Positions 40,330 through 49,231 of a stretch of 64,000 bases of DNA are shown one piece after another. Every line of letters starts with the position of its first letter. Position 1 is the stretch's first letter. The notes beneath the pieces were generated by a model that saw only the letters and a program-made list of their open reading frames with translations, searched no databases and was not told the DNA's origin. The DNA comes from Oscillospiraceae bacterium. Lineage in GTDB: Bacteria > Bacillota > Clostridia > Oscillospirales > Acutalibacteraceae. A program made the translations under genes and the position numbers. The stretch is taken from contig JAQXVY010000004.1 of NCBI GenBank assembly GCA_029225165.1, forward strand, positions 22,321-86,320, written 5' to 3'.

Positions 40330-42573
40330 ATGTCAAAGCCAAAGCCGGGTGCAGCCCAAACACTTAGCCGAAGGTCTGCCTTACTGCTCATTATTCTTAT
40401 ATTGTTAGGTTTTGGAGCGGCAATTTGCCGTATTGCATTTTTGCAGATTGTAAAGGGCGAGGAGCTTAGCCAAAAGGCTGTTGAGCAACAGCTTCACGAC
40501 ACAGAAATATCTGCAAAAAGAGGTACAATTTACGACAGAAACGGAAAGCCACTTGCACAGAGTGCCTCTGTGTGGAGGGTTGTAATGGCTCCTGCATATT
40601 TTGAAGAAGATGAACAGAGGGAGTATGTTGCCGAGAATCTTGCAAAAATCCTTGACCTTAACTATGAGGATGTTTTAGAGGAAACAAAGCAAAATTCCTA
40701 CTATGTCAATGTTAAGAGAAAGATTGAAAGTGAAGAAAGGGAGCAAATCCTAAAGCTTCAGGATAAGATTGAAGAAGAATACGGCATAAAAAATGTAATA
40801 GATTTGCTTGATGATTACAAAAGATATTACCCATACAACGAACTTGCATCTTCCGTAATCGGTTTTACCGGTGCGGACGACCAAGGTCTTGAGGGAGTTG
40901 AATATCAGTACAACAAGTACCTCTCCGGTACAAAGGGCAGACTTGTTTCTGCAAGGAACTCAAGGGGTGCGGATATGCCCTTTGAGTATGAACAGAATAT
41001 TGAGGCAGAGGACGGAAATAATATTGTTCTCACAATAGACGAAACTGTTCAGGCTATCTGCGAAAAATATATGGCTCAAAATATACAGGACTTTAATGTA
41101 TATAACCGTGGCTGTGCAATAATGATGGATGTAAATACCGGTGAAATTATTGCAATGGCAACTGTGGGAGGCTTTGACCTTAACGAGCCATACACCATTG
41201 CAGATAAGGAAACGAAGAAAGAGATTGACGCAATAACCGACGAAAAAAAGAAGAATAAAGCCATTAGCGAGGCACTTACAAAGCAATGGAGAAACAAGGC
41301 AATTTCCGACACCTATTATCCCGGTTCTGTATTTAAGATAATCACATCTTCAATGGGACTTGAGGAGGGCGTAATCTCCACAGACGACACCTTCTTCTGC
41401 TCAGGCGGAATGACTGTGGGCGACAGGGAAATCCACTGTCACGATACTAACGGTCACGGCACACAAACCTTTGAACAGGCTATTATCAACTCCTGTAACC
41501 CTGCATTTATGCAGATTGGCGCAAAGATTGGTGCAGAAAAGTTTTGGGAGTATTATCAGGCTTTCGGCTTTTCTGAATTGACAGGAATTGACCTGCCAGG
41601 CGAAAGTGACGACATATTCTTCTCCCAAGACGGTTCAATGCTTGTAACCGACCTTGCAGTTGCATCCTTTGGTCAGAACTTCTCAATCACGCCTATTCAG
41701 ATGATAACTGCTGTTGCCTCCGTTGCCAACGGAGGAAATCTTGTTCAGCCCCATGTGGTTAAGCAGATTCAGGACAGCAAGGGAAATGTTATCAAGAACT
41801 TTGATACAAAGGTAAAAAGAAAAGTAATCTCAGGTGATGTTTCGGAAACCCTAAACGGAATACTTGAAAGAAACTCCAAACAGGGCGGAGTAAAGGCAGG
41901 ATATGTTGCAGGTTACAGAGTAGCAGGAAAAACCGGTACATCGGAAAAAAAGGTTGACTTAAACGATGACGGCGAGGAGGACTATATCGCATCATTCCTG
42001 GGCTATGCCCCTGCCGATAACCCAAAGTATGCAATGCTGATGTTCTTCGACACACCTGTGGGCGGCGCTTACTATGGCTCAATTGTATCAGCGCCTGTGT
42101 TCTCGTCTATTATGGAGGAGGTTTTGCCTTATCTTGAGGTTGAAACAGAATATACAGACGAGGAGCTGGAGAATATCGACAGCGTAGCCGGTATATATTC
42201 CGGCCTTACACCAAGCGAGGCTGAACAACAGGTTCAAAGCGACAATTTGGTGGCTGTAATAAAGGGAACAGGAGAAAAGGTTATAGCTCAGGTTCCCGAG
42301 GCGGGTGCATCCGTTCCAAACGGAGGAACAGTTGTGCTTTACACAGACGAAAGCTCAGCAAAGGAAACTGTTGAGGTTCCTAACCTAATCGGGTACAGTC
42401 TTAGCGAGGTAAACAATGTGGCGGCAGCATACGGACTGAATGTTTCGGTTAAGGGTGCGTCAACCACAAGTGACGCTTTGTCAACTCAGCAAAGCTTGCC
42501 TGAGGGTACAAAGGTAAGTGAGGGTACTGTGGTGACGGTAACATTTGCGGCACAAACAGGTATTGCGGACTGA
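40330..42573 (+). CDS. Class B penicillin-binding protein (FtsI/SpoVD type) with two PASTA domains
   Basis: This divisome transpeptidase cross-links septal peptidoglycan. It has an N-terminal membrane helix (ALLLIILILLGFGAAICRIAF), a PBP dimer domain starting AKRGTIYDRNGKPLA, and the transpeptidase with all three motifs: SVFK in YPGSVFKIITSS, SCN in INSCNPAFMQ and KTG in VAGKTGTSEK. Two PASTA domains close the protein (about residues 620-745). Bacillus PBP2B has two such domains and SpoVD one, so a vegetative role is likely, though the same gene may serve spores in Clostridia. It is 747 residues and the fourth gene of the dcw cluster. Confidence 0.93.
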   Translation: MSKPKPGAAQTLSRRSALLLIILILLGFGAAICRIAFLQIVKGEELSQKAVEQQLHDTEISAKRGTIYDRNGKPLAQSASVWRVVMAPAYFEEDEQREYVAENLAKILDLNYEDVLEETKQNSYYVNVKRKIESEEREQILKLQDKIEEEYGIKNVIDLLDDYKRYYPYNELASSVIGFTGADDQGLEGVEYQYNKYLSGTKGRLVSARNSRGADMPFEYEQNIEAEDGNNIVLTIDETVQAICEKYMAQNIQDFNVYNRGCAIMMDVNTGEIIAMATVGGFDLNEPYTIADKETKKEIDAITDEKKKNKAISEALTKQWRNKAISDTYYPGSVFKIITSSMGLEEGVISTDDTFFCSGGMTVGDREIHCHDTNGHGTQTFEQAIINSCNPAFMQIGAKIGAEKFWEYYQAFGFSELTGIDLPGESDDIFFSQDGSMLVTDLAVASFGQNFSITPIQMITAVASVANGGNLVQPHVVKQIQDSKGNVIKNFDTKVKRKVISGDVSETLNGILERNSKQGGVKAGYVAGYRVAGKTGTSEKKVDLNDDGEEDYIASFLGYAPADNPKYAMLMFFDTPVGGAYYGSIVSAPVFSSIMEEVLPYLEVETEYTDEELENIDSVAGIYSGLTPSEAEQQVQSDNLVAVIKGTGEKVIAQVPEAGASVPNGGTVVLYTDESSAKETVEVPNLIGYSLSEVNNVAAAYGLNVSVKGASTTSDALSTQQSLPEGTKVSEGTVVTVTFAAQTGIAD

Positions 42574-42596: not shown

Positions 42597-43028
42597 TTGA
42601 ATAATCAAATTGTAATTAAGGGTGACTCACCTGACAAAAAAGAAGTAGAAATGCTTTTGAAAAACTGCGTCAGCAGTCAGTCACTTGAAACTAAAGTCCC
42701 TGTAACCCTTGTCCTTGACAACGCTTATCACGATTTTGACATCAAGGGTGCTTTGGCTGTTCCTGCATCTAACAAAATGTATGACGGTGGGGAAAAGCTG
42801 ACATATTCAACAGTAAATCAAAGTGCTGATGTTGTTGGACTGAATATTCAGGACAGAGAAAATCAAAGGTGCTTTGAACTGCTTTACGGAGCAGAAATGG
42901 GCAGAATTTTTGTAAGTAAAAGCAAGGATATTGCCATTCCCTCTGTAGTAGCGGCGGCGTCTGCTTTAATAGCAGGGAAAATTCCGGTAAAAAAGGTTAT
43001 TGAGGAAATCAATAATCAATTAAAATAA
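42597..43028 (+). CDS. Mur-ligase-like fragment in the murE/murF position
   Basis: This 143-residue protein sits between the PBP gene and mraY, where murE and murF normally lie. The stretch KLTYSTVNQSADVVGLNIQD, CFELLYG... and IPSVVAAASALIAGKIPVKK follows the end of the central domain of Mur ligases (TYG...ADV...NI...F.L ... NVYNALAAIA.G). There is no Walker A GTNGKT and no C-terminal domain, so it cannot be an active ligase. The frame is intact. The start is a TTG with poor ribosome binding sequence, 23 nt after the PBP stop. It may be a retained vestige with a structural or regulatory role, or a decaying gene. The Mur similarity is from memory and needs a profile search. Confidence 0.55.
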   Translation: MNNQIVIKGDSPDKKEVEMLLKNCVSSQSLETKVPVTLVLDNAYHDFDIKGALAVPASNKMYDGGEKLTYSTVNQSADVVGLNIQDRENQRCFELLYGAEMGRIFVSKSKDIAIPSVVAAASALIAGKIPVKKVIEEINNQLK

Positions 43029-43054: not shown

Positions 43055-44086
43055 ATGTTAAACGGTATATGGGCGGCATTGGCGGCTGTGGTTGCCTTTG
43101 CTATCTCGGCGGCAGTTGGAAAGGTTCTTATTCCGGCGTTGCACAAGTTAAAATACGGTCAAACCATTTTGGATATAGGACCTTCCTGGCATAAGAAGAA
43201 AGAGGGTACTCCAACAATGGGCGGAATAATGTTTATCATCGCCATTGTTGTTTCAACAGCGGTTGTCACAACCTGTTTAGCCCTCTTTGGAAGTATTTAC
43301 GAGCCAACAGGATACTCCTTTGGCAAGGAAGTATTTATGATGATAGTAAGCCTTGCTATGGCGTTTTTGTACGGTGCAGTAGGCTTTTTGGACGACTACA
43401 TCAAGGTTGTTAAAAAGAGAAACCTTGGACTTACAGCAAAGCAGAAGCTGGGTTTTCAGTTTGGAATAGCCATTGCATATGTAGCCGTTAACGCATTTTT
43501 CGGCTACGGCAGCAAAACTTATATTCCGTTTTTGGGAACAGTTGACTTTGGCAGCTTTGCCATTGTGTATTATATAATCAGCGTTATCGTAATCGTGGGC
43601 ATTGTAAACGCAGTTAACCTTGCTGACGGAATTGACGGACTTGTAGGCTCGGAAACTTTCTTTGTAGCGCTGTTCTATATGATTGTTGCAAGCATTATGT
43701 CCAGTCCTGCAACAACTGTGCTTTCCTCAGCAATTGCAGGTGGATGCCTTGGATTTTTGATTTGGAACTTTAACCCTGCAAAGGTGTTTATGGGCGACAC
43801 AGGCTCTTTGTTCCTTGGCGGTGCTGTTTGCGCTATGGCTTTTGCAATGAATATGCCTGTAATCCTAATACCGATGGCTTTGGTATATATCATTGAAATG
43901 CTTTCGGTTATTTTGCAGGTTTCATACTTTAAATTAACTCACGGAAAAAGACTTTTCAAAATGAGCCCTATTCATCATCACTTTGAAAAATGTGGTTGGA
44001 GCGAAACAAAAATTGTAGTTGTTTTCAGCTCCTTTACTGTGGTTGTTGGTATAATTGTTACAGCCTTAGTAATTTTAGGACTTTGA
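43055..44086 (+). CDS. mraY: Phospho-N-acetylmuramoyl-pentapeptide transferase
   Basis: MraY makes lipid I by moving phospho-MurNAc-pentapeptide to undecaprenyl phosphate. About ten transmembrane segments are visible. Catalytic and family motifs: KKEGTPTMGGIMF, FLDDYIKVVKKRNLGLTAKQK, NAVNLADGIDGL (metal-binding Asp), WNFNPAKVFMGDTGSL and MSPIHHHFEKCGWSE. The 343 residues are normal. It is followed 37 nt later by ftsW; murD, which usually lies between them, is missing. The start follows GAGGTGAGTTAG. Confidence 0.97.
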   Translation: MLNGIWAALAAVVAFAISAAVGKVLIPALHKLKYGQTILDIGPSWHKKKEGTPTMGGIMFIIAIVVSTAVVTTCLALFGSIYEPTGYSFGKEVFMMIVSLAMAFLYGAVGFLDDYIKVVKKRNLGLTAKQKLGFQFGIAIAYVAVNAFFGYGSKTYIPFLGTVDFGSFAIVYYIISVIVIVGIVNAVNLADGIDGLVGSETFFVALFYMIVASIMSSPATTVLSSAIAGGCLGFLIWNFNPAKVFMGDTGSLFLGGAVCAMAFAMNMPVILIPMALVYIIEMLSVILQVSYFKLTHGKRLFKMSPIHHHFEKCGWSETKIVVVFSSFTVVVGIIVTALVILGL

Positions 44087-44123
44087 TTTATCATATATAT
44101 GGTTAGTAGAAAGGAGGAGCGTA

Positions 44124-45365
44124 ATGTCAACACAAACCTTGAAGAGAATGTCGTCGGAAAGACAGCGTACCTCAAAAAGCTACAATAGAAAAAGAGGAAC
44201 AGTTAACTCAAAAACTCCTCCAAAGGGTAGAAAAAAACACCTTTCCCTATTTTCTGTGGGTATGGGTATTGACCTGCCCTTTTTGATAATAATTCTGTTG
44301 CTCCTTGTAATCGGCCTTATTATGATGTTTTCTGCATCCTATCCGGTTGCATACTACAACAACGGCGACAGCCTGTATTTTCTCAAAAGACAGCTTATGT
44401 TTGCCGCTATCGGCATAACACTGATGTTAGGTATTTCCTACATAGATTATCACATACTTCACCATCTGGCATACATTTTTTTGGGGATTTCCTATTTCGC
44501 CCTTGTTCTGGTGCTTATACTTCCTCCGGTTCAAAATGTGCACCGTTGGGTTGGTGTTGGCGGTTACGGTATTCAGGCGTCGGAGTTTTCAAAATTTGCA
44601 ATAGTTCTTTTCCTTGCCCGTTGGGGTAGCTTGTACTACGAAAAAATGAATACGATAAAGTACGGTGTAATGCCTGCTTTAACTGTGTTTGTCAGCACAG
44701 CCCTTTTGCTTGTTCTTGAGCCTCACTACTCAGGCATAGTTATTGTGCTTTTGCTTACGGTTATGATGCTGTTCCTTTCGGGTATTAAAACAAGGTGGCT
44801 TGTTATGGCATTTATAGCCGCCGGAGTGGCTTTCCTTATTGCTTGGGCAACAGGAATTTTGTCATATGCTATGACCCGAATGGAGGGCTGGGGTCAGGCG
44901 CTTGAATATACAAACGAAAAAATGTGGCAAACAACTTGGCAGACAAGAAACAGCCTTTATGCAATAGGCTCCGGAGGATTTTTCGGATTGGGACTTGGCA
45001 ACTCAAGGCAAAAGTATTTGTACCTTCCTGAGCCTCAAAACGACTTTATCTTCGCTATTGTGTGCGAAGAGCTTGGACTTATGGGAGCTATTGTAATTTT
45101 GGCTATATTTGCTTTTCTGGTTTACAGGGGTATTTTTATTTCCCTGCGTGCTCCCGACCGTTTCGGCAGACTTCTGGGAATAGGCTTAACCTCCCAAATC
45201 GGAATACAGGTTATTCTTAATATATTCGTTATTACAGACTGGTTGCCAAACACAGGCATCAGCTTGCCCTTCTTCTCCTACGGAGGAAGTTCGCTGATAG
45301 TACTTTTGGCACAGATGGGTGTTGTGCTTTCCATATCACGACATTCAAATATTGAAAAAGCATAA
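44124..45365 (+). CDS. ftsW: Peptidoglycan glycosyltransferase FtsW
   Basis: FtsW is a SEDS glycan polymerase that works with the class B PBP at the septum. The protein opens with a long basic, Ser/Lys-rich cytoplasmic tail (about 45 residues), then has about ten membrane helices. SEDS signatures seen are [62 protein letters not shown] (split here) and [14 protein letters not shown]. The catalytic Asp lies in PEPQNDFIF. The 413-residue length is normal. It overlaps no neighbour; murG follows after 12 nt. Confidence 0.96.
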   Translation: [413 protein letters not shown]

Positions 45366-47833: not shown

Positions 47834-49231
47834 ATGGCTAAGAAAAAATCTGCAAAAAGGAAAAATGCGGGCAAAATAGTCCTTGAGGATGACAGAAAAT
47901 CAAGGGGTAAAAGTGTAAAGACAAATTCCAAAAAGAAACCTGCCAAAAAGCCTGTTAACAGGGCACACAGATATGATGATTTTGACTACATCCGCCCCGG
48001 TCGTGACGTGGAATTTTCCCGTGGCATCGGAGATGTTAATATGCCGACTCCCCCTAAAGCTCAACCTGTTGACAGAACAAAGAAAAGGGTGGATAACAAG
48101 AAAAAGAAAGCCCCTCAAAACAAGAAAACAAAAATTCACAACAGAAACAAAGAATTTTTAGGAAAAAATGTTTCAGGCAGCGGAGTTTACGAGGACGAAT
48201 TTTACGATAACAAAACAAGGAAGAAGAAAAAGCCTTCATCCCAAAGCCACACAACCCGCCGTAGCCTCAAAATATTTACATATGCTGCTATTGTGGGTGT
48301 TGTGGTAGTTTTGGGCATCACACTTTCCCTTACAGTATTTTTCAAAACAGCCCAATTTGAGGTTAACGGAAAGACAAGATATGATAAACAGGAAATTATA
48401 AATGCCTGCGGAATTAAAGAGGGAGAAAATATTTTTATCGCCGACAAAAAGAGGGCGTCGGAAAATATAGTAAACGCCTTTCCGTATATCGCTCAGGCAG
48501 ATGTTTCCTTTGGCTTTCCCGACAGAATTGTAATTGATGTAACAGAGGGCAAAGCTAAATATATGGTGAAGTATGCCAAAAAGGAATTTTGCGTTGTTTC
48601 CAAAGAGGGCAGAATTTTAAAAATTGCAAAAAAGAAAATCGCCGATTTGCCCCTTGTTAAGGGCTTAACCCTAAAATCAAATGTTCCCGGAACATATGTG
48701 GAATACAGCGAAAAAAGTATGTCCACAGCACTTGAAGCTATTGTCAAAAGTGTAGATAATTGCGGACTGAAGGATTTGACAGAGATAAATGTTTCGGACA
48801 AGGCAAACCTGACCTTTACCTATGACGGCAGAGTGCTTGTAAAGCTTGGTGTTCCCGAGGATATTGACTACAAGGTGAGAACTGCTAAAGCCATAATTAC
48901 GGACAAGCTTGACCCCAATAATACAGGAATTATACAGGGTACTCTTGATGTTAGTCAGTGTAAGGAAACAAAGAGAAGTTACTTTAACGAAAAGTCCATT
49001 GTAACCTCGGTATCTGACAATAGCCAAACTGAAACAACTGCACCTGTACAGGATTACTATGCAGACCCAAATGCTTATGTTGATCCAAATGCATACGCAG
49101 ACCCCAACGCATACGCAGACCCAAATGCTTATGCAGACCCTAACGCATATGTTGACCCTAACGCATATGTTGACCCTAACACATATGTTGACCCTAATGC
49201 CTACACCGACCAAGGCGGAGCAGTGCAGTGA
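47834..49231 (+). CDS. ftsQ: FtsQ/DivIB cell division protein with DPNAY repeat tail
   Basis: The protein starts with about 150 basic, Lys-rich residues inside the cell. One membrane helix follows (FTYAAIVGVVVVLGITLSLTVF), then a POTRA domain beginning FEVNGKTRYDKQEIINACGI and a DivIB-type beta domain. These features fit FtsQ/DivIB, which recruits FtsL-DivIC to the septum. The C-terminus is unusual: eight six-residue units of the form [AV]DPNAY end the protein. The basic tail is also much longer than usual. The start ATG follows AAAGGGGTGTGAAA; the GTG at 47828 in the track is inside that site. It precedes ftsZ. Confidence 0.9.
   Translation: MAKKKSAKRKNAGKIVLEDDRKSRGKSVKTNSKKKPAKKPVNRAHRYDDFDYIRPGRDVEFSRGIGDVNMPTPPKAQPVDRTKKRVDNKKKKAPQNKKTKIHNRNKEFLGKNVSGSGVYEDEFYDNKTRKKKKPSSQSHTTRRSLKIFTYAAIVGVVVVLGITLSLTVFFKTAQFEVNGKTRYDKQEIINACGIKEGENIFIADKKRASENIVNAFPYIAQADVSFGFPDRIVIDVTEGKAKYMVKYAKKEFCVVSKEGRILKIAKKKIADLPLVKGLTLKSNVPGTYVEYSEKSMSTALEAIVKSVDNCGLKDLTEINVSDKANLTFTYDGRVLVKLGVPEDIDYKVRTAKAIITDKLDPNNTGIIQGTLDVSQCKETKRSYFNEKSIVTSVSDNSQTETTAPVQDYYADPNAYVDPNAYADPNAYADPNAYADPNAYVDPNAYVDPNTYVDPNAYTDQGGAVQ
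49061..49204 (+). repeat. Tandem 18-bp coding repeat in ftsQ
   Basis: Eight 18-bp units encode ADPNAY or VDPNAY (one VDPNTY). Units differ at third codon positions (CCAAATGCT, CCCAACGCA, CCTAACGCA), so selection appears to keep the peptide while the DNA drifts. Confidence 0.92.

Follow-up and report, generated by a model that had tools for sequence, protein, structure and literature searches.

A shortened, P-loop-less murE gene in the pbp-mraY slot of an Oscillospiraceae dcw cluster, a putative non-catalytic MurE derivative

Known MurE systems and the analyzed locus

Mur ligases, textbook examples of essential enzymes, are also drug targets, and it has long been asked whether they take part in a multi-enzyme complex as structural components. 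The closest described counterpart of the gene presented in this work (hereafter mini-MurE) is MurE itself (UDP-MurNAc-L-Ala-D-Glu ligase, central domain PF08245), which in related bacteria occupies the same slot of the dcw cluster. Both proteins share the homologous second half of the central domain and the same predicted fold, but mini-MurE comprises about 143 aa versus 480-500 aa of MurE, and is devoid of the UDP-binding domain, the P-loop, the catalytic residues and the DNPR-containing C-terminal domain. In plants, MurE has been recruited as a structural component of a different machine, its homologues there being peripheral subunits of plastid RNA polymerase (PMC12681378); unlike mini-MurE, they are full-length, keep many catalytic residues, act in plastid transcription and are of independent origin. 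Moreover, association of Mur enzymes with MraY and MreB is documented for several bacteria, and MurE-MurF binds MurG with micromolar affinity (PMC6420597). The complexes in which a MurE-MurF fusion and MurG form a scaffold (PMC6420597, 8f5d) exemplify physical contacts of MurE within the cytoplasmic lipid II pathway, and contacts of this kind are what mini-MurE could keep, although these complexes consist of active enzymes, whereas mini-MurE has no active site. MurT (of MurT-GatD), present in the source genome (L005), is likewise a Mur-fold protein outside the MurC-MurF set, but it is full-length and carries a P-loop, and hhalign comparisons of the mini-MurE profile with MurT and with MurD (each represented by a single sequence) gave no match. 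Our searches of open-access literature yielded no description of a truncated MurE, of a Mur pseudoenzyme or of a dcw remnant resembling mini-MurE. Pseudoenzymes and a repurposed MurE being already known, the new element is a P-loop-less mini-MurE that arises repeatedly in the native slot after displacement.

The window, i.e., the whole analyzed stretch of 64,000 nucleotides, originates from a genome assembly of 1.97 Mb (61 contigs, 88% complete). Its + strand carries mraZ, mraW, ftsL, pbp, mini-MurE, mraY, ftsW, murG, murA, ftsQ, and ftsZ (gene names were assigned by reading the translations). The sequence-only reading had pointed to an intact frame of 143 codons in a position normally held by murE/murF; the open frame was confirmed, and related genera indeed hold murE and/or murF there. 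The frame starts 23 nt past the pbp stop codon and mraY follows 26 nt past its end, and because of this spacing co-transcription of the three genes is likely. The TTG start lines up with ATG starts of the copies found in relatives. The coordinates of the features are collected in Table 1.

Table 1. Location of mini-MurE, its neighbours and its distinguished segments within the window.
Feature	Position	Strand	Remarks
PASTA-domain penicillin-binding protein gene (pbp)	40330..42573	+	upstream neighbour of the mini-MurE gene
mini-MurE gene	42597..43028	+	143 codons, TTG start, TAA stop; homologues intact, 22/161 congeneric genomes
First strand and helix (residues 5-26)	42609..42674	+	probable structural equivalent of the strand-loop-helix of Walker A, with a destroyed P-loop (IVIKGDSPDKKEVEMLL); AlphaFold2, Foldseek
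Residues 44-141, homologous to the latter half of the MurE central domain	42726..43019	+	sequence profile comparison
Conserved TYS motif (residues 69-71)	42801..42809	+	shared with slot MurE; alignment
MGR motif (residues 101-103)	42897..42905	+	IGR of slot MurE; alignment
mraY	43055..44086	+	downstream neighbour of the mini-MurE gene

Full-length MurC, MurD, MurE, MurF, and MurT, together with a FolC-like protein, are encoded on other contigs of the source genome. As a full-length MurE is among them, the mini-MurE frame is unnecessary for the MurE reaction. As to gene order, murD is placed on another contig (contig 15 of G000) and is absent between mraY and ftsW (window positions 44086-44124), and the full-length murE and murF are likewise located outside the dcw cluster. 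It is also worth mentioning that the FtsQ-like protein ends with a C-terminal tandem (Y-A/V-D-P-N-A) tail of about 10 copies (window positions 49050-49231).

Identity, predicted structure and lost motifs of mini-MurE

Scanning with the single mini-MurE sequence gave no match in Pfam and no Mur match in NCBIfam, where the best hit was an aldolase (E=0.004, 16.6 bits). Such a result would suit an unrelated small protein or a gene-calling artefact in the slot. This explanation was refuted: the aldolase match occurred in only one of the 22 members of the genus family and was far under the cut-off (406), while profile, fold and synteny rule out a gene unrelated to Mur and, together with selection, agree on MurE. 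When all 22 members were scanned, only Mur families matched recurrently, i.e., the MurE model in 10 members (best E-value 4.8e-5) and MurF in nine. Comparison of the genus profile with MurE of the order applying hhalign resulted in an E-value of 1.6e-15 (MurC, 1.3e-8; MurF, 1.6e-6), with a score of 108 over residues 44-141 versus at most 26 for 40 column shuffles; the reversed profile stayed at noise level and five unrelated dcw profiles scored 12 to 16. The Mur similarity proposed earlier was therefore borne out, with negative controls. In the profile search of PDB sequences MurE appeared only at E=1.7, and a STEAP4 match (E=0.084) was at chance level. MurC, the sole full-length Mur match of the profile in the source genome, was rejected as the source of the gene, since slot MurE scores far better. 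The order pbp-murE-murF-mraY kept in relatives points to a reduced native murE and, judging from the sequence comparisons and the modelled fold taken together, mini-MurE is almost certainly the native dcw murE cut to a compact central domain.

Structure prediction with AlphaFold2 (22 sequences) gave a pLDDT of 94.1 and a pTM of 0.90, with a predicted order of beta-alpha-beta-beta, followed by four strands and two helices. The best Foldseek match in PDB was MurE of Thermotoga maritima (1.9e-5), and all 35 matches at E<=0.001 were Mur ligases, pseudomurein peptide ligase or the MurE-like subunit of plastid RNA polymerase. The 143 residues mostly span about 200-230 target columns, i.e., with internal deletions. 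The suggestion that the frame resembles only the end of the Mur central domain thus held for the sequence comparison (residues 44-141) and not for the predicted structure, in which the entire chain maps onto the central domain, interrupted by internal deletions. In longer relatives the N-terminal stretch aligns, in a degenerate form, to the Walker A motif of MurE, IGVTGTNGKTTT; their N-terminal profile scored 23.8 against Walker A versus no more than 16.6 for 60 shuffles, and the match obtained from the genus sequences alone was not significant. On this evidence, residues 1-43 need not be foreign.

The frame begins at the central domain; none of the short copies found has an N-terminal UDP-binding domain, and mini proteins stop at the end of the central domain and carry no D[ND]P[RK] motif. 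As anticipated, the Walker loop and the C-terminal domain are missing, and the P-loop, DHLD, the nucleotide loop, the UDP-binding domain and the greater part of the catalytic core are all gone from mini-MurE as well. The motifs GTxGKT, DHxD, PGxF, and DNPR are absent from all 28 mini proteins scanned, in which Arg103 is invariant. The combined alignment with MurE revealed that TYS, AD, N, F-E, and GR are retained and that the PGxFxVYN loop, which follows IGR in MurE, is missing. This loop of Mur ligases contributes to nucleotide binding, and with its loss the remainder is a structural core without a nucleotide site. Of the features of an active Mur ligase, only the central-domain homology was found, with no P-loop, UDP-binding domain or DNPR C-terminal domain, and ligase activity is expected to be absent.

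These losses also bear on the view that mini-MurE is a non-catalytic regulator that adjusts the flux by binding Mur-pathway enzymes, precursors or nucleotides, a view that includes the previously proposed sensor of UDP-MurNAc precursors. The Mur fold retained in the model and the co-transcription with pbp and mraY expected from the spacing would fit such a role, but with the UDP-binding domain, the P-loop and the PGxFxVYN loop absent, the ancestral sites are unlikely to serve for direct sensing of UDP-MurNAc or ATP; the sensor is disfavoured, and we consider a regulator in general unlikely.

Conservation, selection and loss of the mini gene

Profile searches of 161 congeneric genomes (many of the compared genomes are draft assemblies) revealed mini-MurE homologues in 22, while the other matches were to MurC genes, apart from a single chance match. 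In 21 of them the homologue is located between pbp and mraY, and in the remaining carrier (G098) pbp lies upstream and the contig stops after the mini gene. A search of genome contigs with the mini-MurE alignment, and then with the single protein, gave no matches, and a subclade search indicated five close relatives and one distant match. The genus proteins have 138-155 aa and 21-45% identity to the window protein, and most of their genes possess ATG starts and GGAGG-like (Shine-Dalgarno-like) sites. Residues N83, M101, R103, and N139 are invariant, and T69, Y70, S71, D78, and Q85 nearly so. It should be stressed that mini-MurE diverges faster than its neighbours, with 42% identity to the copy of G022 versus 78% for mraY.

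At about 25% identity, none of the 22 genus homologues contains an internal stop or a frameshift. Pairwise dN/dS values (NG86) were 0.14-0.17 in a close trio of mini genes. Codon models gave omega of 0.143 and 0.194 in two clades of five, which are the best resolved, and of 0.03-0.11 in three smaller, more saturated clades; omega=1 was rejected with 2dlnL of 125 and 143 in the former two and of 71-143 over all clades. Stops, frameshifts and relaxed selection, by which a pseudogene is recognized, are thus not observed, as the 22 frames are intact and omega is well below 1, whereas the enzyme fold kept (in prediction), the catalytic residues lost and the purifying selection are those of a pseudoenzyme. 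Mini-MurE is very probably a protein that folds, as modelled, lacks catalytic motifs and evolves under purifying selection, i.e., a pseudoenzyme and not a decaying pseudogene. The function expected from the uninterrupted frame is accordingly upheld by purifying selection, intact frames and a confident predicted fold.

Other genera of the family carry murE, murF or both genes in this slot. The distance between pbp and mraY equals 2856-2888 nt with murE and murF (family f1), 1518 nt with murE only, 460-562 nt with the mini gene in this genus and 578-688 nt with the mini gene elsewhere, and mostly 26-227 nt in slots without a gene. On the pbp+mraY+ftsW tree the mini state is scattered over the subfamily and the genus and absent from whole clades, a distribution that we read as repeated loss of an ancestrally present mini gene. 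The gene was lost in many clades without a visible replacement, and its function is therefore dispensable, or not universally needed.

This pattern could also be produced by a slowly decaying murE relic without function, heading for deletion, for which the clean loss in whole clades, the high divergence of mini genes and the graded series from murE and murF through murE only and the mini gene to nothing may be quoted. Against it stand the omega of 0.14-0.19 with omega=1 strongly rejected, the undamaged frames of the 22 homologues, the confident globular fold obtained in modelling and the lack of half-decayed copies, since five pbp-mraY gaps without a gene were checked for pseudogene traces and no remnant was found. 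A relic is therefore improbable, even more so than the regulator.

Some slots have other contents. In G015 (L027) and G033 (L031), at about 1077-1442, a protein of 122 aa replaces mini-MurE, and by eye it looks like the four-helix S23/intervening-sequence type. In G378 (L207), the pbp-mraY gap is unusually long (904 nt) and shows no similarity to mini-MurE or MurE.

Apparent repeated reduction of murE and the possible role of its product

Short frames also occur in f14, another family of the order, where frames of 178-271 codons occupy the same slot in genera g14, g221, and g160. For one mini protein of g221, a confident structure prediction (pLDDT 85.6, pTM 0.84) yielded a similar fold, which matches Mur ligases. 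In a class-wide sample of 391 genomes, frames below 250 aa were, among the matches listed, confined to f1 and f14. The slot of G419 (L290 / L261) holds a 391-aa intermediate, which lost the N-terminal domain, is the only reduced copy to retain the C-terminal one and has GGAGKT for GTNGKT and DDPR for DNPR; this genome also carries a relocated full-length MurE. Among the 16 tested genomes with a mini gene, 15 had a full-length MurE at another locus, the exception being an assembly that is 76% complete.

In the MurE tree the slot enzymes create one clade (support 1.00) and the relocated enzymes a separate one (1.00), with the exception of the g14 enzymes, which make up a third lineage. The relocated MurE of g160 and G419 falls within the f1 group, a placement that horizontal transfer would produce. 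The concatenated marker tree, built with FastTree, requires four conversions (one in f1 and three in f14) if a full slot murE was never regained, so about four murE-to-mini conversions are counted. The position of g14 on this tree is weakly supported (0.31), and by the marker tree alone two of the f14 conversions could be one; the different relocated MurE of g14 argues against a single event. From the trees, it is likely that the genome gained, at a different locus, a full-length MurE belonging to another lineage, which freed the slot copy from catalysis.

The constant company of a full-length MurE (bar the one incomplete genome) might suggest that mini-MurE is its partner subunit in a hetero-oligomer with the functional enzyme. 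However, G407, G016, and G222 have the same relocated MurE lineage without the mini gene, so the enzyme does not need mini-MurE, and we find this reading very unlikely, more so than the relic.

In the mechanism that we propose instead, the acquired MurE would take over catalysis and the native dcw murE would then shrink. Mini-MurE would retain the old docking surface of MurE, i.e., a three-stranded beta subdomain with TYS..AD..N and M-G-R, facing membrane-proximal partners such as MraY, MurG, MurF or a PBP, and would tether or adjust the cytosolic Mur pathway by protein-protein contact. The mini gene has probably taken on a new task that is not enzymatic, and the scaffold role suggested earlier is plausible. 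More specifically, gene position and precedent tentatively suggest that the protein serves the lipid II machinery as a non-catalytic docking subunit, for which we see slightly less than an even chance, the partner being conjectural. As a whole, the explanation composed of a reduced and displaced murE, a selected pseudoenzyme and a docking role is the best one available, and we give it even chances. The most general form, in which murE was pared repeatedly and convergently to a P-loop-less core kept because it structurally contacts the membrane machinery of lipid II, is possible but rather doubtful. If it is true, MurE has a structural moonlighting role separable from catalysis and mapped by natural deletions. 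On about four occasions evolution seems to have stripped away the chemistry while retaining a single domain. Mini-MurE indicates which portion of MurE may have a non-catalytic role and offers a small protein, well folded in prediction, for testing it.

A link with MreB was considered and rejected, as MreB occurs in nearly all genomes with or without the mini gene. Among mini-gene carriers, G278 shows only a weak actin-like match. In the draft genome G063 (C15:58152-59122), an mreB-like gene is split into two frames, one of them with stops, which could reflect an assembly error.
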